64,000 nt of DNA from the NCBI RefSeq assembly GCF_025717675.1, contig NZ_JAJIRT010000004.1, positions 186,001 through 250,000 on the forward strand, in the 5' to 3' direction. Each line of letters begins with the position of its first letter. Position 1 is the stretch's first letter. This stretch comes from Paucibacter sp. DJ2R-2 (lineage in GTDB: Bacteria; Pseudomonadota; Gammaproteobacteria; Burkholderiales; Burkholderiaceae_C). The notes beneath the pieces are model-generated. The model made no database searches and was not told the origin of the DNA. It was given only the letters and a program-made list of their open reading frames with translations. This document shows positions 35,228 to 45,823 of the stretch, one piece after another. Position numbers and translations under genes: made by a program.

Positions 35228-36199
35228 ATGTGGACTGGATTGCTGTTTGCCCTCGGCGCCGGACTGATGTGGGGCCTGGTCTTTGTGGCGCCGCTGCTGA
35301 TGGCGGACTACCCGCCGGCCCTGTTGGTGGCCGGTCGCTACCTGGCCTTTGGCGTGATCGCCCTGCCCCTGGCCCTGATCGACCGGCGCAGCCTGCAGGG
35401 GCTGGCGCGCGCCGACTGGCTGGAGGCCTGCAAGCTCAGCGCCATCGGCAATTTTCTCTACTACCTGTGCCTGGCGGCTGCCATCCAGCGCGCCGGTGCG
35501 GCGCTGCCGACCGTCATCATCGGCACACTGCCAGTGGTGATTGCCATCAGCTCCAATCTGCGCGACCACCGACGCGACGGCCGCCTGCCCTGGCTGCAGC
35601 TGAGCCCGGCCCTGGCCCTGATCGCCGGAGGCATTGCCTGCGTCAACCATGCCGAACTGCAGCGGCTGGCCGTCGGCCTTGAAGCCGGTCCCGAAGCCCT
35701 GCAGCGCTACGCCCAAGGTGCGGCGCTGGCGGTGGTGGCCGTGGCTTGCTGGACCTGGTATCCCATCCGCAATGCCGACTGGTTGCGCGCCCACCAGGAG
35801 CGCAGCCCGCGTGTTTGGGCCACGGCTCAGGGCCTGGTCACCCTGCCCATGGCCTTGCTGTGCTTTGCGCTGCTGGGGCTGTTGCCGCGCGATCTAGGCC
35901 TGCTGCCCGCTGGCTTCGAGCTGCCGCTGGGGCCGCGCCCCTTGGCCTATCTGGGGCTGATGGCAGCCATCGGCCTGTTTTCATCGTGGATCGGCACCCT
36001 GTGCTGGAACGAGGCCAGCCAACGCCTGCCGACCAGCCTGGTCGGGCAGCTGATCGTCTTCGAAACCCTGGCGGCCCTGGCCTATGCCTTTGTGCTGGCC
36101 GGGCGCTGGCCCTCGGCGTGGACCTTGAGCGGCATCGCCTTGCTGATCGCCGGCGTGATCCTGGCGCTGCGCATCAAGCCGCAGCCCAGTGCGGCCTGA
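35228..36199 (+). CDS. EamA/DMT-family inner-membrane transporter
   Basis: 323 residues from ATG at 35228 (MWTGLLFALGAGLMWGLVFV). About ten hydrophobic segments make two EamA-like repeats, with the family features GRYLAFGVIALPLALIDRR and NFLYYLCLAAAIQRAGAALP in the first half and GLFSSWIGTLCWNEASQRLP and LVGQLIVFETLAALAYAF in the second. Members export amino acids, nucleobases or metabolites, but the substrate is not evident. The terminator in front separates it from glcDEF, so it is a single-gene unit converging on pssA with a 15-bp gap. Confidence 0.9.
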   Translation: MWTGLLFALGAGLMWGLVFVAPLLMADYPPALLVAGRYLAFGVIALPLALIDRRSLQGLARADWLEACKLSAIGNFLYYLCLAAAIQRAGAALPTVIIGTLPVVIAISSNLRDHRRDGRLPWLQLSPALALIAGGIACVNHAELQRLAVGLEAGPEALQRYAQGAALAVVAVACWTWYPIRNADWLRAHQERSPRVWATAQGLVTLPMALLCFALLGLLPRDLGLLPAGFELPLGPRPLAYLGLMAAIGLFSSWIGTLCWNEASQRLPTSLVGQLIVFETLAALAYAFVLAGRWPSAWTLSGIALLIAGVILALRIKPQPSAA

Positions 36200-36214
36200 T
36201 ACTTGGCCTCGACC

Positions 36215-36832
36215 TCAGAGCTTGGGAATACGGATGCGGCTCACCATCAGCGAGCCCGACACGGCATAGAGCAGCACCAGAGGGTGCAGGTAGAAGCCAC
36301 CCAACTCCAGGCGGCCCAGCCACAGCTGATCACCGATCGCGCCCTGCGCTGCGGCGGCAGCCAGCACCATGACCAGGACCAGGGAGGTAGGGATGGGCGT
36401 GCCTTCGAAATACTTGACCTTGTCGCCACCTTCGCTGAGCGCCTCGGCCGTGATGTTGAAACGCGCCAGGCGCGACACGCCGCAGGCCACGAAGAACACC
36501 AGCACGATGCGGTCATAGAGACCCTGCATGCCGCAGCCGTAGGCAATGGCTGCGGGCGCCACGCCGAAGGAGATGATGTCCGCCAGGGAGTCCAGCTCGC
36601 GGCCCATGGCCGAGGTCTGCTGGCGCCAACGCGCAACGCGGCCATCCAGCACGTCAAAGACCAGGGCCACCGGGATCAGGGCGCAGGCATAAAAGATGTG
36701 CACGACCGAGCCGGTCTGCAAATAGCTCATCACCGCGAACAAGGCACCCATGCCGGCAAAGGCATTGGCCAGGGTGAACCAGTCGGCGAGATGGAACTCG
36801 CGGATCATGGCGAAAGGTTTGGGTCGATTCAT
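36215..36832 (-). CDS. pssA: CDP-diacylglycerol-serine O-phosphatidyltransferase
   Basis: 205 residues with about six membrane helices. The CDP-alcohol phosphatidyltransferase motif is complete: D60-V-L-D63-G64, A67-R68, then G and D residues in MGRELDSLADIISFG. The enzyme makes phosphatidylserine from CDP-diacylglycerol and serine, the precursor of phosphatidylethanolamine. The motif and the N-terminal WFTLANAFAGMGAL are typical of the integral-membrane PssA type rather than the phospholipase-D type of E. coli. An internal ATG at 36808 (MIREFHLADWF) is an alternative start; neither codon has a good ribosome site. Psd and IlvC partners often linked in Burkholderiales are not present. Confidence 0.88.
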   Translation of the reverse strand: MNRPKPFAMIREFHLADWFTLANAFAGMGALFAVMSYLQTGSVVHIFYACALIPVALVFDVLDGRVARWRQQTSAMGRELDSLADIISFGVAPAAIAYGCGMQGLYDRIVLVFFVACGVSRLARFNITAEALSEGGDKVKYFEGTPIPTSLVLVMVLAAAAAQGAIGDQLWLGRLELGGFYLHPLVLLYAVSGSLMVSRIRIPKL

Positions 36833-36884
36833 GGGCTAAAGCATAAGGGAAGGCGCAGGGCCTTGAACTCAGCCGCTACGCCGC

Positions 36885-37982
36885 TCAGCGTGGATCGTTC
36901 TGCAAGGCGGCGGCCGAGATGGTGGTCGGCCCCACCCAGGCTTTGCGAGCCAGGTGAACGAACAAAAGATGAGGCGGCATGCGCAGCCAGTGACCACGAA
37001 TGTAGAGCAGCTTGCGGCACAGCGGTGTGGCCCAGTCACGGGTGCTGCTGTGTTGGGGCCGCAGGGTGCGGCTGTAGATCCAGTCCAAGGTGTGCTCGGC
37101 GACGCCCTGGCTTCGCTCGGCCTTCAGAGCTTGCAAAGCCGAATCAGGCACGGGGCAGGCCAGCACCTGGACCAGATAGCGCAGGGCCAGGCGCAGAGGC
37201 ATTTGCAAATCCATGGCAGCCGCACGCGCGACCAACTGAGGCCAGAAATTCGGCTCCCTAGAGAAATGGCGCAAGAGCAGATCGAGGTCGCTGAGGTCAC
37301 GCAGCAAGTTCTCCGACTCGCCGTCGTGGAACAGATGGCAGGCGCTGTGCAAGACCATGTCGGTGGGCTGGAGCGTACGCATACCGGGCGAGCCGGGGAT
37401 CTCCACGCTGTCGCGGATCAAGGCTTGCGCATCCGGCTTGAGCCGAGCCGTCGGCGGCAGGATGGTGTGGTGCACATCGAGCGCAGTACCTCGGTGCATC
37501 TGCCGCATGGCAGGGAGCTCGTGCATCCACTGCCGGTAGTAGCGCTGGTCGTAGGCATCGAGGGGCTCGCCGATCCAGCCGGTCATGATCAAGGCAGACT
37601 CGGCCTCGGGCAGCCGTTCGCGCGGCAGAAGGATGTCGATGTCGGCAAACACACGACCGCTGGCCGCCGGCAGATCGCCGACCACATAGGCAGCGCCCTT
37701 GAGGAGAATCAAGGGCAAGCCCAAGCCAGCCAGGGTGTCTCGCAGGAAGCGGCTCTCATAGCGAACCAGCATGTGCTGGCGGTCCGCCATGACGGCCGCG
37801 GATTCCATGTGATGGAGCGGCCGCTCCGGGACCTGCGCCAGAAGATCGGCCGCTTGCAAGCGGCGGTAGAGGCGGCCGAGCAGATTGGCATGACGGGCCT
37901 GGCGCACGAGCAAATCCCACTCGACGGCGCTCAGGGCGGCGATGCGGTGACTGTCCAGCAGGACCTGCCGCAGCAAACTCAT
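36885..37982 (-). CDS. Nucleotidyltransferase-fold protein of the HPr-rel-A cluster
   Basis: 365 residues from ATG at 37982. It belongs to the uncharacterised nucleotidyltransferase family NTP_transf_5: LILLKGAAYVVGD near 91-103, then the predicted metal-binding pair D114/D116 in VFADIDILLPRERL, and TALDVHHTI and DMVLHSACHLFHDGES further on. Similar proteins occur as tailoring genes in some lasso-peptide clusters and beside HprK-related kinases. Here it is the last gene of the four-gene set, 7 nt after the kinase stop. The family chemistry implies transfer of a nucleotide or phosphate group to a protein or peptide, but no activity has been assigned. See the findings for the cluster. Confidence 0.85.
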   Translation of the reverse strand: MSLLRQVLLDSHRIAALSAVEWDLLVRQARHANLLGRLYRRLQAADLLAQVPERPLHHMESAAVMADRQHMLVRYESRFLRDTLAGLGLPLILLKGAAYVVGDLPAASGRVFADIDILLPRERLPEAESALIMTGWIGEPLDAYDQRYYRQWMHELPAMRQMHRGTALDVHHTILPPTARLKPDAQALIRDSVEIPGSPGMRTLQPTDMVLHSACHLFHDGESENLLRDLSDLDLLLRHFSREPNFWPQLVARAAAMDLQMPLRLALRYLVQVLACPVPDSALQALKAERSQGVAEHTLDWIYSRTLRPQHSSTRDWATPLCRKLLYIRGHWLRMPPHLLFVHLARKAWVGPTTISAAALQNDPR

Positions 37983-37989
37983 GGCGGGT

Positions 37990-38919
37990 TCAAACGATGT
38001 TTGCATCGGCAGTCGACAAAGCCAGTTGGTCAAACACCTGCATGGCTTCGTCCAGATCGCTGTACTCGAAGCTGAAGTGTTGGCAGCGGTCCACCAAATC
38101 ACCGACGGCGCGGAAACCTTCGGCCGCCAAGATGTGGTAATTCATGGCGTTGTCGGCAATCTTCATGAACGCTTCGCCGCGCGGCATAGGCGTCAGCTTG
38201 GTGCTCGCACCGGCCCGGTAGCGGGGCAGCACCATCCAAGCCGGCCAGGCGGGCTCATCGACGGCTTCGACACTGGCCTGCGGTGCTGCCATCATGGCCA
38301 CGGTGCCCTTGGTGGTGTCATGAACCGGGCGGCTGAACAAGGCTTGCGGCGCAAAGCGCTGAATGACGTCGATCGACACATTCTTCAGGTTCACCGGCCT
38401 GGCCAAACCCAGCATGGCGCCGGTGTCCAGTCGAATGATGCTGAGTTCGTCCGACAACAAGCGCCAGCCGCGATTCACCAGGGCCGCACACAGAGTGCTT
38501 TTCCCGGAGCCGGGCGGCGCCGGAAGGATCAAGGTACGGCCATTCCGCGCCACGGCTGCGGCATGAAGAATCAGCGCATGGTTGCTGTAAGCCGTGATGC
38601 ACCAGTTCAAGCCCCACTCGATCATGGGTAGAGCTTGGTCGCGCGGCAGCGGCGTGAAAGGCTCGACGCCGTCGACCGAGAACAGGGCTTGCGGACGGAT
38701 CCAGCGGCGCAAGCCGCGGCTGGTATTCACCGCGACATGAAAGTCGATGAACTCCTCGGGGCCTAGCAGTCGGTGATGCGCATAGTTCTGCGCCACCTCA
38801 GAGGCGATCGCAGCGATGTCCGACTGCAAGCGGCAGTTGAACGGGCCAGTCGCAATTCGCAGGCCGTCCCCGAGCAAGGCCGCACGAAGCTCATGCTCAG
38901 ACAGGTGTTCAAGCAGCAC
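37990..38919 (-). CDS. HprK-related kinase A
   Basis: 309 residues from GTG at 38919, overlapping the PqqD-like gene by 11 bp. The Walker A loop is PPGSGKS at 135-141 with K140, preceded by ALILHAAAVARNGR and followed by LLSDELSIIRLDTG, where the acidic pair fits the HPr kinase/phosphorylase catalytic site. The N-terminal 110 residues are specific to the HprK-related subfamily A. True HprK phosphorylates HPr on serine; this subfamily lacks the HPr-recognition part and its substrate is unknown. The co-encoded PqqD-like protein and nucleotidyltransferase imply action on a peptide or protein delivered by the PqqD-like module. Confidence 0.9.
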   Translation of the reverse strand: MLLEHLSEHELRAALLGDGLRIATGPFNCRLQSDIAAIASEVAQNYAHHRLLGPEEFIDFHVAVNTSRGLRRWIRPQALFSVDGVEPFTPLPRDQALPMIEWGLNWCITAYSNHALILHAAAVARNGRTLILPAPPGSGKSTLCAALVNRGWRLLSDELSIIRLDTGAMLGLARPVNLKNVSIDVIQRFAPQALFSRPVHDTTKGTVAMMAAPQASVEAVDEPAWPAWMVLPRYRAGASTKLTPMPRGEAFMKIADNAMNYHILAAEGFRAVGDLVDRCQHFSFEYSDLDEAMQVFDQLALSTADANIV

Positions 38920-39244
38920 GGCTTGCCTTCACCAGCAAACCAGCCGCCAGCAAGGCATCCACTGCCTCACTCACCTCAACAAAGACCTGATCTGCAGCCG
39001 CCTCAGGCTCTTCCGCCTGGACACAACGCAACAACTCATTGACCGTGCAGGCTGACCCTGTGGAAACCTGCTGCCAGATAAAAAAAGCCAACCAACTCAT
39101 CAACTGAGTTTCGCCGCTGGCTTGGTCAAAGAACACTTGCCCGTCTTCAAACTTGCGCCACAACAAGCGTCGAGCGGCGCCTGCGAGCACAAGCTCGGGC
39201 GCCACCGCGACGGACGTGGAAACGATCAAGTGACTTTCAAGCAA
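38909..39244 (-). CDS. PqqD-like protein (HPr-rel-A system)
   Basis: 111 residues with a winged-helix PqqD-like fold: RRLLWRKFEDGQVFFDQASG (the beta hairpin region), QLMSWLAFFIWQQV, a helical CTVNELLRCVQ and SEAVDALLAAGLLVKA at the end. PqqD-like domains are RiPP recognition elements that bind the leader of a precursor peptide and present it to a modifying enzyme. The sequence starts with TTG at 39244 or a little further in; no good ribosome site decides. It overlaps the kinase gene by 11 bp, so the two are translated together. Likely partner: the small secreted protein encoded 97 bp upstream, or a peptide encoded elsewhere. Confidence 0.82.
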   Translation of the reverse strand: MLESHLIVSTSVAVAPELVLAGAARRLLWRKFEDGQVFFDQASGETQLMSWLAFFIWQQVSTGSACTVNELLRCVQAEEPEAAADQVFVEVSEAVDALLAAGLLVKASRAA

Positions 39245-39341
39245 CTAACGGGCCGACTACGAGTTTGCTGACTCTCACTCCAAGAGCTAGCGCTGACGCG
39301 AGGCAGCCTGGCTTGTGGCGCACTGACAGCCAAGGCTAGCC

Positions 39342-39923
39342 TCAAGCCTGACCGGTCAAGTACCTCAAGTACTGCACCACTTCGGCTCGATTCCAGGTCA
39401 CCACCGGAGCGGTCAGCACGGTATATCGATTCGTGCCAACGGTCGAGTTCCACATGCTTTTCACCACGCTTGCGGCCGGGAAATTCAGACCGCCGTTAAC
39501 GATGGCCTGCAGATACACGGCCACGATCAAGGCCTTCTCGTTGCCGTTGCCCAGATTCAAAGCGTCCATGAAGGTCGAAGAATCCGCGGCCGCGCCGATG
39601 GTCGGGCTGAAGGCGCAGCCCGTGGAGACACCGGTGCCCGTGAATTGCCCCGAGACTACGCTGGTCTTCCATTGGTCAGGGCGCTTGCCCGGAGCCGCGC
39701 AGCTGCTCGAACCCGTGCGGCTCAGATTGCCAGACGCTGAAAAACCGGAGGGCAGCTTGCAATTGCAAGCCAGCACCGGTGTCGAAGTCAGCGCCAAAAG
39801 GGCTGGCGCCGCGAGGCTACCGCGCAACAAGCGACGACGGCTGCCTGAGGGCACGGGACCCGCAATGGGGCTGACCTCGGGGGAGGCTTGGCTCACTGGC
39901 TGGTTGTCATTGAAGTTGTTCAC
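39342..39923 (-). CDS. Small secreted protein, possible substrate of the HPr-rel-A cluster
   Basis: 193 residues from GTG at 39923, preceded by AGAGGCAAGAAC. The N-terminus (about 1-27) is Asn/Gln/Pro-rich; a basic SRRRLLRGS and hydrophobic LAAPALLALTSTPVLA then form a Tat-like or Sec signal peptide ending before CNCK. The mature part has several cysteines (CNCK, SSCAAPG, TGCAFSP), Gly/Ser-rich sequence and a C-terminal half with DALNLGNGNEKALIVAVYLQ and VQYLRYL. I do not recognise the family. The position as the first gene of the operon, upstream of a PqqD-like protein, kinase and nucleotidyltransferase, makes it a candidate substrate or a structural component. The 97-bp gap to the PqqD-like gene has no terminator. 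Confidence 0.7.
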   Translation of the reverse strand: MNNFNDNQPVSQASPEVSPIAGPVPSGSRRRLLRGSLAAPALLALTSTPVLACNCKLPSGFSASGNLSRTGSSSCAAPGKRPDQWKTSVVSGQFTGTGVSTGCAFSPTIGAAADSSTFMDALNLGNGNEKALIVAVYLQAIVNGGLNFPAASVVKSMWNSTVGTNRYTVLTAPVVTWNRAEVVQYLRYLTGQA

Positions 39924-40267
39924 GTTCTTGCCTCTGTTTCAGTGCGGTGCTCGCGGAATACTCGCCAGCCAGCAGTCAAGCCTGCCGACCCATCCGTCGC
40001 GCGAGACCTGGAGTGTCGCAGACGGCTTGCCCGATCGACTTGCAGCCAAGTCCATCCAAGCAAGCGTATGGTAGAGGACTCTGCGTTTGCGCCAAATGAC
40101 AACCGAGCCCTCAATCCGGGGGGTCACAGCCACTTTTGGACACAAAATCGCGAGATCGTGAAAAGTTCCTTTCGGTGAAACTCTGCAAATCATGCCCAAT
40201 AGACGTTTGGGGCACCTAGATGACATGTCACGTCACTTCGCGGCAAGAACCTGAGAGGCAGAACTTA
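39924..40267. other. Divergent promoter region with a 10-bp palindrome
   Basis: 344 bp without a gene between the HPr-rel-A operon and the solute-binding protein gene. A perfect palindrome, TGACATGTCA, lies at 40221-40230, 37 bp before the start at 40268 and followed by a related CGTCAC word; it may be an operator. I see no terminator or coding frame worth calling. Confidence 0.45.
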
Positions 40268-41056
40268 ATGGGTGGCACTCGGACGTTCTTCCAGTTTTTG
40301 ATCTGTTTCGCGCTGATCTCGTCCACCACCGGGTGGGCGCAGTCGGCGTCATCGGTGGGGTCAGCCGAACCCTTGACCGTTCTGCTCGAGCCCGTCCCGC
40401 CCTTTTCCTACGAAGACCCTTCAGGACAGCCAGCAGGCTACGCCGTGGAATTGATGCAGGAGTTGCTCAAGCGCTCGGGCCATGGCTACAAAGCAGAGTT
40501 CAATTCTTGGGCGCGGATCTACCAGCGCGCCCAATCCACGCCGCGGGTTCTGGTGGTCAGCATGGCACGCCTGGCCGAGCGCGAGTCGGCGTTTTTCTGG
40601 ATTGGACCGACCGCCGCGCGTCGGGTGTTTCTGTACCGACTCAAGTCACGACCCGAGATCAACCCGCCCACGCTGGAGGCCGCCAAGGCCTACAAGATCG
40701 CCGTGGTCCGGGAAGATGCCGCGGAGCGCGACTTGGTCGCCCAGGGCTTTGAGCTGGGCAAGCAACTGGACCGCAGCCCCGACCACGCGGCCATGCTGCG
40801 CAAGCTTTTTATTCAGCGCGACGACCTGGTCGCATTGAATAGCACGGTGGCAGCGGCGGTGACCGGCCAGTTCGGCTACGACTTCAAGCAGATCGAACCG
40901 GTGCTCAAGCTGTCCGAAACCTCGCTGTTCATGGCCTTGAGTCGCAGCAGCGGCGAAGGCTTGCACCAGCAACTGCTGCGCGCCTGGGACAGCATGAAGC
41001 GCGACGGCACAGTGGCGGCCATCGCAGCCGGCCACCCTTTCGTGGTGCTGGACTGA
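40268..41056 (+). CDS. Periplasmic solute-binding protein (bacterial type 3 family)
   Basis: 262 residues; ATG at 40268 has GAGG 8-9 nt upstream (AGAGGCAGAACTTA). A signal peptide ends near WAQSA. The mature protein has the family-3 solute-binding pattern: PFSYEDPSGQPAGYAVELMQ near the start, TPRVLVVSMARLAERE, WIGPTAARRVFLYRL, and a LNSTVAAAVTGQFGYDF hinge region. Such proteins bind amino acids or other small polar molecules, either for an ABC importer or as sensing proteins. No permease or ATPase is linked, so it may serve as an orphan binding or sensing protein. It converges on the YpfJ-type gene with a 7-bp gap. Confidence 0.85.
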   Translation: MGGTRTFFQFLICFALISSTTGWAQSASSVGSAEPLTVLLEPVPPFSYEDPSGQPAGYAVELMQELLKRSGHGYKAEFNSWARIYQRAQSTPRVLVVSMARLAERESAFFWIGPTAARRVFLYRLKSRPEINPPTLEAAKAYKIAVVREDAAERDLVAQGFELGKQLDRSPDHAAMLRKLFIQRDDLVALNSTVAAAVTGQFGYDFKQIEPVLKLSETSLFMALSRSSGEGLHQQLLRAWDSMKRDGTVAAIAAGHPFVVLD

Positions 41057-43990: not shown

Positions 43991-45823
43991 TCAGTCAGAT
44001 TCGCCCAGGAAGCCGCCACTCTGGTGAGCCCACAGCCTGGCGTACAAACCGCCCTGAGCCAACAGGCTGGTGTGGTCGCCCTGCTCGACGATCTCGCCGC
44101 CGTCCATCACGATCAGACGGTCCATGGCGGCGATGGTTGACAGGCGGTGGGCGATCGCCACCACCGTCTTGCCTTCCATCAGGCGGTAGAGGCTGGTCTG
44201 GATCGCCGCCTCGACTTCCGAATCCAGCGCGCTGGTCGCCTCGTCCAGCAGCAGGATGGGCGCGTCCTTCAGCATCACCCGGGCAATGGCAACGCGCTGA
44301 CGTTGGCCGCCGCTGAGCTTGACGCCGCGTTCGCCGACATGGGCGTCAAAACCGCTGCGCCCCTTCGGGTCGCTGAGGCCGGCGATGAAGGTCATGGCCT
44401 CGGCCCGCTCGGCCGCCTGCACCATCTGTGCTTCGTCGGCGTCGGGGCGGCCGTAGAGCAGGTTGTCGCGCACCGAGCGATGCAGCAGCGAGGTGTCCTG
44501 GGTGACCATGCCGATCTGAGCGCGCAGGCTGTCCTGGGTCACGCCGGCGATGTCCTGGCCGTCAATCAAGATGCGGCCCTGCTCCAGGTCATGGAAACGC
44601 AGCAGCAAATTGACCAGGGTGGACTTGCCGGCACCAGAGCGCCCGACCAAGCCGATCTTCTCGCCGGCGCGGATCTGCAGGTCCAGGGCCTTCAGCACCG
44701 GCTTCGTGCCGCCATAGGCAAAGCTGACCTGCTCGAAGCGGATCTCGCCGCGGCTGACCTGCAGCGGCTGGGCGCCGTCCGCGTCGCGCACCGTCACGCC
44801 ACGCGCCAGGGTGCTGATGCCGTCCTGCACCGTGCCGATGTGCTCGAACAGGCTGGACATCTCCCACATGATCCAGTGTGCGATGCCGTTGAGACGCAGG
44901 GCCATGGCCGTGGCCGCCGCCACCGCGCCGACGCCGACCTCGCCGCGCGTCCACAGCCACAGCGTCATGCCGGCGGTACTGGCGATCAGGCCCATGGACA
45001 GCACATGGTTGACCACCTCGAAACCGCTGACCAGGCGCATCTGCCGGTAAGCCGTGCCCAGGAATTCCTGCATCGCGCCGCGCGCGAACTGCGCCTCGCG
45101 CTGGCTGTGCGAGAACAGCTTGACGGTGCTGATATTGGTGTACGCGTCGGTGATGCGGCCCGTCATCAGGCTGCGCGCATCGGCCTGCGCACTGGCCGCT
45201 TGGCCCAGGCGCGGCACGAAGTGGTACAGCGCCAGACCGTAGCAAAGCAACCAGCCCAGGAAGGGCAGCATCAGGATCAGATCGAAACTGCCCACCACGC
45301 CCAGCATGGTGATGAAGTAGATGGTGATGAAGACCAGGATGTCGGTGACGATGAGCACGCAGTCGCGCACCGCCAGCGCCGTCTGCATCAGCTTGGCCGA
45401 CACCCGGCCGGCAAACTCATCGGCAAAGAAGCTCATGCTCTGGCCGAGCAGATGGCGGTGGAAGTTCCAGCGCAGGCGCATCGGGAAATTGGCCGACAGG
45501 CCCTGGTACTTGCTCAAGGCCTGCAAGGCGATCAGCAGCGGGCTGAGCAGCAGGATGCCGGCCAGCAAGGCCAGACGGCCCTTCTCCTGCGCCCACAAGC
45601 GGTCGGCCGGCACCTGGCTGAGAAAGTCCACCACCGAGCCGAGCATTGCGAACAGCAGGGCCTCGAAAGCACCGATGCCGGCGGTCAGCAGCGTCATTGC
45701 CAGGATCAGGCCACGCATGCCGCGCGTGGCCGACCAGACAAAGGGGAAGAAGCCCAGCGGCGGCTGCGGCGGCGGGCCGGCCGGGAAGGGGTCGACCCGG
45801 CGCTCGAACCAGGAAAACAACAT
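43991..45823 (-). CDS. ABC exporter, fused membrane and ATPase domains (MsbA-like half-transporter)
   Basis: 610 residues. Six membrane helices span about 25-330. The ATPase domain has Walker A LVGRSGAGKST, the signature LSGGQRQRVAIARVML, Walker B ILLLDEATSALD and the H-loop AIAHRLSTI. It should form a homodimeric exporter for lipid, peptide or drug. Its ATG overlaps the stop of the phosphatase gene by one base (TGATG), so its translation depends on the upstream gene. That coupling suggests a shared substrate, perhaps a phosphorylated lipid or metabolite. No adhesin or HlyD-type partner is linked. Confidence 0.93.
   Translation of the reverse strand: MLFSWFERRVDPFPAGPPPQPPLGFFPFVWSATRGMRGLILAMTLLTAGIGAFEALLFAMLGSVVDFLSQVPADRLWAQEKGRLALLAGILLLSPLLIALQALSKYQGLSANFPMRLRWNFHRHLLGQSMSFFADEFAGRVSAKLMQTALAVRDCVLIVTDILVFITIYFITMLGVVGSFDLILMLPFLGWLLCYGLALYHFVPRLGQAASAQADARSLMTGRITDAYTNISTVKLFSHSQREAQFARGAMQEFLGTAYRQMRLVSGFEVVNHVLSMGLIASTAGMTLWLWTRGEVGVGAVAAATAMALRLNGIAHWIMWEMSSLFEHIGTVQDGISTLARGVTVRDADGAQPLQVSRGEIRFEQVSFAYGGTKPVLKALDLQIRAGEKIGLVGRSGAGKSTLVNLLLRFHDLEQGRILIDGQDIAGVTQDSLRAQIGMVTQDTSLLHRSVRDNLLYGRPDADEAQMVQAAERAEAMTFIAGLSDPKGRSGFDAHVGERGVKLSGGQRQRVAIARVMLKDAPILLLDEATSALDSEVEAAIQTSLYRLMEGKTVVAIAHRLSTIAAMDRLIVMDGGEIVEQGDHTSLLAQGGLYARLWAHQSGGFLGESD

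Follow-up and report, generated by a model that had tools for sequence, protein, structure and literature searches.

The window analysed here is a stretch of 64,000 nucleotides from Paucibacter sp. DJ2R-2 (contig NZ_JAJIRT010000004.1, positions 186,001 to 250,000); in the 5.80 Mb assembly (G000) it lies on the contig referred to as C29. Positions 36885-39923 of the window hold four open reading frames (ORFs), all on the minus strand. These encode a protein with a twin-arginine translocation (Tat)-type signal, referred to as SEC, followed by a PqqD-like protein, an HprK-related kinase and a nucleotidyltransferase-family protein (the NTP protein, after the family NTP_transf_5). The last three are collectively termed the trio. 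The original prediction, made from the sequence alone, described a same-strand gene set and a stand-alone phosphorylation/nucleotidylation system, acting perhaps on the secreted protein encoded upstream. ORF calling bears out the arrangement, and a Tat-signal protein is found to accompany the trio across the genus, the family and beyond. The features of the locus are as follows.

39342-39923, minus strand: SEC, Tat-signal protein and proposed client of the trio; ORF with GTG start, 193 aa
39768-39839, minus strand: SEC codons 29-52, from the twin arginine to the presumed signal-peptidase site; proposed leader or recognition element and best-conserved stretch of SEC
39747-39749, minus strand: SEC Ser59 codon, putative phospho-acceptor; invariant in 76/76 aligned sequences
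38909-39244, minus strand: PqqD-like protein, a discrete recognition element (RRE) of the type serving ribosomally synthesized and post-translationally modified peptides (RiPPs), by its RRE-like model; ORF, 111 aa
37990-38919, minus strand: HprK-related kinase A; ORF, 309 aa; TIGR04352
36885-37982, minus strand: NTP_transf_5 nucleotidyltransferase-family protein; ATG start at 37982, 365 aa; PF14907

The PqqD-like and kinase genes overlap by 11 bp (38909-38919) and 7 nt (37983-37989) separate the kinase from the NTP gene, both exactly as predicted, while 97 nt lie between SEC and the PqqD gene. The longest possible ORF for the NTP protein would begin at 38102, within the kinase gene. A promoter search of 36800-40300 returned one promoter-like site, on the plus strand; no terminator-like site was found in the same interval and no Rfam family in 36000-41000.

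The kinase scores 387.9 bits against TIGR04352 (HprK_rel_A; cut-off 200) and the NTP protein 192.7 bits against PF14907 (cut-off 31.2), so that both predicted assignments hold. The PqqD-like module stands by fold and falls short by sequence, with 27.1 bits against TIGR04353 (cut-off 35) and 19.3 bits against PF05402 (cut-off 23.4). Its structural model (pLDDT 89.3) has the RREs of lasso peptide systems as best Foldseek matches (5v1v, 5v1u and 6jx3; probability 1.00, E 1.4e-3 to 3.9e-3), with no match below E 0.001. As its position is kept in 80/80 of the named-species loci described below and the model is RRE-like, the protein is regarded as divergent, not unrelated. The PqqD alignment comprised 46 of these 80 proteins and that of the window.

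A constant companion with a Tat-type signal

The kinase model TIGR04352 was searched over overlapping draws of genomes, together with 14 controls. It is matched above its cut-off in 17/18 genomes of the genus (that of the window among them), 73/299 of the family, 41/369 of the class and 61/398 of the phylum, and in 0/14 controls. A further scan covered 84,980 named species, each represented by a single genome. It turned up at least 572 kinase relatives, of which the best 80 were used, so this set leans towards close relatives. The regions opened comprise these 80 named-species loci, a genus/family set of 40 (39 of the 40 stretches opened, each of up to 20 kb, plus the window), a class/phylum set of 40 stretches and 20 further divergent regions. 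Several named-species loci repeat loci of the other sets, so the locus counts are not independent. Identity of the G009 locus with that of Paucibacter sp. Y2R2-4, and of the G011 locus with that of a Rubrivivax MAG, puts the window's genus close to Paucibacter/Roseateles within Sphaerotilaceae. SEC was located in the opened regions with an iterated profile built from it.

A search for the constant companion of the trio had been suggested, and this is a Tat-signal protein. Among the best 80 named-species loci, SEC precedes PqqD-HprK in 80/80 (worst E 4.3e-16), and the NTP gene is present in 79/80; the one locus without it (L208) is close to the end of its contig. In the genus/family regions a SEC relative lies ahead of the kinase match in 40/40, at a distance of approximately 0.85-1.4 kb, with PqqD in 38/40 (not L055 or L065) and NTP in 39/40 (not L058, a short contig). 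At class/phylum distance a SEC-profile match is in place in 37/40 regions, 32 of them at E<=1e-3, with PqqD in 33/40 and an adjacent NTP gene in 35/40. A recognised Tat client is present in 15 of the 20 further divergent regions.

The two genes also share presence and copy number. Within the genus, the SEC profile matches exactly the 17/18 genomes with a kinase; G002 has two of each and G001 has neither. The two cassettes of G002 (L054 and L055, contig C31) have diverged and lie 43 kb apart. A different kind of duplication is seen in L083 (7444-8964), where two tandem SEC paralogues stand ahead of a single PqqD-kinase-NTP set.

Within the family, the profile matches 78/299 genomes, including 71/73 of those with a kinase. 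For 37 of these 73 the stretch around the kinase was inspected directly, and the remainder were judged from match coordinates, by which a SEC match lies directly upstream of the kinase in 66/73. Three genomes from a single genus (G085, G190 and G267) depart from this order, SEC coming immediately after the NTP gene (L317, 5978-6655; L318 and L319, reverse strand), with PqqD still before or at the kinase; this SEC retains a Tat-type signal and a C.VSG..SGN motif. The partnership of SEC with the trio thus outlasts gene order. Four genomes are particular cases: the profile matches in G028 are to a large protein, and a wider profile locates SEC beside the kinase; G220 is split across contigs, with SEC and PqqD ending one and kinase and NTP ending another; and in G275 and G283 a different protein, ending in a CW.S-type motif, takes the SEC position. 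Seven SEC-profile matches fall outside the kinase genomes. Six are weak (E 1.6e-5 to 9e-4), four of these being limited to profile positions up to 65, and in G263 the main match lies within a frame of 1808 aa.

The distribution of the kinase, with none in the controls, and the partner genes adjoining it in most opened loci indicate that the gene set is not a product of chance. Chance adjacency is rejected by the constancy of SEC across genus/family and named-species loci, by its shared presence and copy number with the kinase in the genus and by the altered gene order. Absence of such co-occurrence would have spoken against the original prediction, and the association is found instead; together with the lack of other constant genes, it supports a stand-alone system. 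It is thus very probable that SEC is the client of the trio.

The signal segment, the candidate serine and the enzymes

An alignment of 76 SEC sequences was prepared from 75/80 named-species loci and the window. Near-duplicates (L190, L257), an ORF lacking RR (L220), a mis-set start (L235) and an N-containing fragment (L259) were left out. R29, R30 and S59 are invariant, while L45, C55 and L138 are conserved at >=90%. The Tat-type signal runs from R29 R30 to A52 and is followed by the motif C55-KLP-S59-GFSA-S64. The twin arginine stands before a hydrophobic stretch in 76/76 members; when the alignment is relaxed to 159 class I-profile sequences, 156 have RR and one has KR, while one of the remaining two is a truncated ORF and one a fragment. 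Ser59 is Ser in 140 and Thr in nine of 158 sequences of this looser set, Ser64 is Ser in 147 and Thr in five of 156, and 142/159 sequences fit the pattern C.{2,3}[ST] with a nearby Ser after it. The twin-arginine-type signal suggests that SEC would be exported in vivo by the Tat route.

Mean pairwise column identity is 0.453 over residues 29-52, 0.335 over 53-72, 0.199 over 73-193 and 0.132 over 1-28. The signal segment is unusual, as a stretch that normally drifts is here the conserved one. AlphaFold2 predicts a confident domain from approximately residue 80 (ten-residue blocks at pLDDT 85-97), with S59, S64 and S68 in the low-confidence part ahead of it. Foldseek returned no PDB match to the fold at E<=0.001. 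Searches of the 76 members against Pfam and NCBIfam gave no family and only weak single-member matches, of which formate_TAT (0.0013) and Pfam TAT_signal (0.0074) both fit the signal. Three other weak library matches (0.0054-0.0093) and three matches of the SEC profile to PDB sequences, the best being glucose-6-phosphate isomerase at 0.0096, were taken as chance. SEC-like folded domains also occur, one or two in each, within six large frames of family members (L282-L287; 1295-4460 aa), several of which contain "EGLTPGFWKNH".

The clients fall into three classes, I, II and III, which were defined in this analysis by eye. In the class/phylum regions, class I accounts for 24/40, class II for eight (L162, L165-L169, L173, L174) and class III for one (L181); four clients (L151, L153, L179, L182) were placed in no class, and 3/40 regions have none. 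The further divergent regions have class II in eight and class III in seven. Class II proteins end in SCW.SF or near it and class III proteins in GFTC[FY]ASLQ, while a similar twin-arginine signal opens the clients of all three classes. Three class II proteins gave no Pfam match and a single NCBIfam match at 0.04. Plasmids also carry such clients, of class III in Sphingomonas parapaucimobilis and class I in Vibrio alfacsensis, each annotated "hypothetical protein". The trio is thus accompanied by at least three kinds of probable client behind similar Tat signals. A similar leader before unrelated cargo resembles the organisation of RiPP precursors, and the signal segment may be the site on SEC that is bound by the RRE.

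TorD/DmsD-type proteins are proofreading chaperones of Tat signals, and the PqqD-like protein could be a chaperone of this kind. The kinase and NTP protein would then act on PqqD or on a small molecule and time the export of a SEC that is never phosphorylated. This would account for the Tat signal, as opposed to the mature domain, being the best-conserved stretch, and for the three classes having only a similar signal in common; the NCBIfam name of TIGR04353 is itself "PqqD family peptide chaperone". It does not account for Ser59, which stands behind the signal and is invariant in 76 sequences despite the divergence of the mature protein. Related kinases, moreover, phosphorylate a precursor peptide (PMC9266682, PMC13381572). 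A chaperone role of this kind is considered unlikely, and modification of SEC by the trio is preferred.

The enzymes themselves appear intact. Among 21 chosen kinases, H119, the P-loop residues G137 and G139-K140-S141-T142, D157 and E158 are invariant in 21/21, and D114 and D116 of the NTP protein are kept in 80/80 named-species loci. Lasso-tailoring kinases are reported to have a His-Lys-Asp-Asp motif (PMC9266682). This would map onto H119-K140-D157-E158, the last residue being Glu for Asp. It could be proposed that the kinase belongs to carbon control of the HPr kinase type, with SEC as an unrelated neighbour, and the kinase sequence weakly resembles HPr kinase (1jb1, E 0.044). Among PDB sequences, the best matches are to midasin (E 2.8e-4). 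The HPr kinase/phosphorylase model TIGR00679 gives only 13.9 bits against a cut-off of 240, and SEC is a regular companion and not an occasional neighbour. A regulatory role is therefore extremely improbable. A defence system was also rejected, as PADLOC gave a single 12.1-bit match to the kinase and nothing for the other three genes.

HprK-like genes are also seen in other surroundings. The window's genome also contains another, more distant HprK-like ORF, which scores 33 bits against TIGR04352 and lies in a region that was opened with the genus/family set and is not a cassette (L066, 7805-10094; G000:C22:147000-166999). By eye, it adjoins NTP_transf_5-, glycosyltransferase-, methyltransferase- and radical-SAM-like ORFs and is possibly another peptide-tailoring island. 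In L172, the HprK_rel_A kinase adjoins glycosyltransferase-like and aminotransferase-like ORFs, also named by eye.

Neighbouring genes and probable turnover of the cassette

Neighbouring genes were clustered by single-linkage BLAST over 160 regions (80 named-species and 80 others, the window included; the sets overlap). The kinase cluster is present in 159 regions, NTP in 131 and the main SEC cluster in 122, and every other gene in 45 or fewer. No constant cyclase, B2 protease, leader peptidase, SpI peptidase or exporter is found among the recurrent clusters of these regions, in agreement with the prediction that the set lacks a cyclase, protease or export gene. The commonest extra neighbour is an HtrA-like serine protease (45/160), mostly directly beside the cassette and a candidate processing partner; 31 of its 45 regions are also near XrtA-type genes. 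In the window, an ABC-transporter-like ORF lies at 43991-45823, and its cluster is present in 10/160 regions.

XrtA/PEP-CTERM polysaccharide genes lie within -7/+8 kb of the kinase in 50/160 regions. The clusters concerned, each named through one representative, are PrsT, chain-length determinant, export protein, amidotransferase and glycosyltransferase; an asparagine-synthase-like cluster near 8/160 regions has the XrtA amidotransferase TIGR03108 as its representative. The XrtA chain-length determinant TIGR03007 is above its cut-off in 104/299 family genomes. It is present in 70/73 genomes with the kinase and 34/226 others (Fisher 4e-38, kinship ignored), and counted by genus in 35/36 against 16/105 (Fisher 1e-19, kinship again ignored).

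The kinase tree was built from 31/80 named-species loci, 17 genus rows and the window. Among these 31 named-species loci, L250 is from Thermodesulfobacteriota and the remainder are from Pseudomonadota. The genus copies are scattered in the tree, and the window's kinase groups with copies from Zoogloea, Dechloromonas and Roseateles/Pelomonas (15 rows, support 99/98). The flanks are shared in 13/18 genus copies (12 fetched and the window), where the cassette sits between pssA and a solute-binding and/or metallopeptidase-like gene. Across the genus, the cassette genes are much less similar than the flanking genes: in 10/12 fetched regions, pssA is 83-87% and the kinase 47-52% identical to those of the window, and in the other two (L053, L057) the values are 98-99% and 86%. 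In L065 (G003), the cassette is inverted relative to its flanks in an otherwise conserved pssA slot. The tree and the flanking genes are most simply explained if the entire cassette is exchanged at a fixed chromosomal slot, much as surface antigens are. The four proteins are also correlated in their pairwise identities (Spearman 0.43-0.61; 77/81 loci, with L208, L220, L235 and L259 excluded), a pattern compatible with co-inheritance and also with shared descent.

Such turnover could also be expected of a secreted antimicrobial or signalling RiPP-like protein, toxin-like or used in communication, that diversifies through cassette swapping. The divergence of SEC, the apparent replacement at a fixed slot and maturation of the RRE type are all compatible with this. 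With no further constant gene in the 160 regions, however, there is no candidate for immunity, protease or exporter. The SEC-like domains within the frames of 1295-4460 aa could belong to surface proteins, and the tie to XrtA polysaccharide loci is strong. An antimicrobial or signalling function is accordingly rated as improbable.

The proposed maturation pathway and related systems

It is proposed that the four genes form one protein-maturation cassette, in which SEC is the client and is made by the ribosome as a precursor. The PqqD-like RRE would recognise SEC in the cytoplasm, most likely through the conserved signal segment, and present it to the kinase. The HprK-type kinase would then phosphorylate a serine just behind the signal, the best candidate being Ser59 in the C-x(2,3)-S motif. 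The NTP protein would add a nucleotidyl or sugar group to the phosphate. Tat would export the finished, folded protein, the signal would be removed, and the modified SEC would join or decorate an exopolysaccharide matrix of the XrtA type. The chemistry is taken by analogy from lasso peptides and linear polyphosphorylated peptide (LPP) RiPPs, and the reading as a whole is given a probability of roughly 0.55. Phosphorylation of a SEC serine is somewhat more probable, on the precedent of related kinases. Placement of the phosphate at Ser59 is a tentative assignment; that the NTP protein extends this phosphate is, judging again from its relatives, possible at a similar level. A role in the matrix or with XrtA may be put at about even.

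Precedents for the chemistry come from two peptide systems. In lasso peptides, PsmK phosphorylates a C-terminal Ser and PsmN, annotated as a nucleotidyltransferase, adds hexoses onto the phosphoserine; PadeK is a further precedent (PMC9266682). The paeninodin and pseudomycoidin pathways have an HprK-like kinase and a nucleotidyltransferase in common with the cassette, and the lasso pathway includes B1 proteins (PMC9266682). The cassette has no constant macrolactam cyclase or B2 protease, and its client is a protein of approximately 200 aa, not a threaded peptide.

The LPP RiPPs, from the lpp cluster of Paenibacillus alginolyticus (PMC13381572, 2026), are the closest described system found. Multiple phosphorylation of Ser3 in the 45-residue core depends on the kinase LppK (PMC13381572). 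A discrete RRE, HprK-like kinase and NTP transferase, a ribosomal precursor and the lack of a macrolactam cyclase are common to both systems. As further points of likeness, LPP precursors measure 35-200 aa, their leader is cut by a signal-peptidase-type enzyme, and they were first seen in capsular polysaccharide loci (PMC13381572). They differ in that a SpI peptidase and an MsbA-like transporter belong to the cluster itself, in their YxxPxVLxHQxIxFETxxS motif and in occurring mainly in Bacillota (PMC13381572); the cassette has neither constant neighbour, and carries a Tat-type signal on a client with a predicted folded domain. With so close a system published, the claim of an "undescribed system" was too strong. 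The LPP and lasso systems support the view that the cassette works in a similar way, and neither is a home by membership.

By score, the kinase is a full member of HPr-rel-A (TIGR04352, TIGR04353), with the PqqD-like and nucleotidyltransferase genes in the neighbouring positions and the former below its cut-off. An adjacent nucleotidyltransferase is presumably a defining HPr-rel-A feature. The NCBIfam release searched has no model that matches the exported client. In comparison with other systems, SEC has a Tat-type signal and only single weak NCBIfam matches as regards XrtA/PEP-CTERM, and for pyrroloquinoline quinone biosynthesis the PqqD-like protein stays under the PF05402 cut-off.

Several observations count against the proposed pathway. 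In the genus/family set the profile search missed PqqD in 2/40 regions and the adjacent NTP gene in 1/40; in the class/phylum set the misses rise to 7/40 and 5/40, so the trio is less constant at distance. Five of the 37 class/phylum clients (L165, L166, L169, L181, L182) are weak by score, though with a twin-arginine signal present. Three class/phylum regions (L171, L172, L178) have a kinase without a recognised Tat client, neither SEC nor PqqD being found, and the L171 stretch starts 1.4 kb before the kinase; among the 20 further regions, four (L296, L299, L300, L310) have no Tat client and L307 was counted in neither group. As the class II and III clients are without the class I motif, a common phosphorylation site is unproven. 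The leader motif [YW]xxP of lasso and LPP RREs occurs in 1/79 SEC N-termini, so any leader recognition here must differ from theirs. Deletion of lppN is reported to have given no visible change (PMC13381572). The XrtA statistics ignore phylogeny, the kinase genomes G083, G201 and G220 are without the XrtA marker, and in the window's genome the marker is on a different contig.

A more far-reaching possibility is that a single signal peptide doubles as Tat signal and RiPP-type leader, and that the trio attaches a sugar or nucleotide, through a phosphate, to exported proteins that are unrelated to one another (at least three client classes), coupling them to XrtA exopolysaccharide. Such a leader-swap system is speculative and rather doubtful; no protein-to-polysaccharide linkage of this kind is described in the literature found.

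The HPr-rel-A genes have been named without a function: no use of the names was found in the literature searched, and the NCBIfam model names state none. The present analysis supplies the likely missing piece, namely the client proteins, and for the main kind of client it singles out one invariant serine. Within RRE-guided HprK/NTP tailoring, Tat-signal clients with folded domains, as predicted by modelling, are a notable addition. If the proposed pathway is true, RiPP-type chemistry would no longer be confined to small peptides but would take in folded proteins that are exported, and RiPP-type tailoring would be linked to the exosortase-A exopolysaccharide system.

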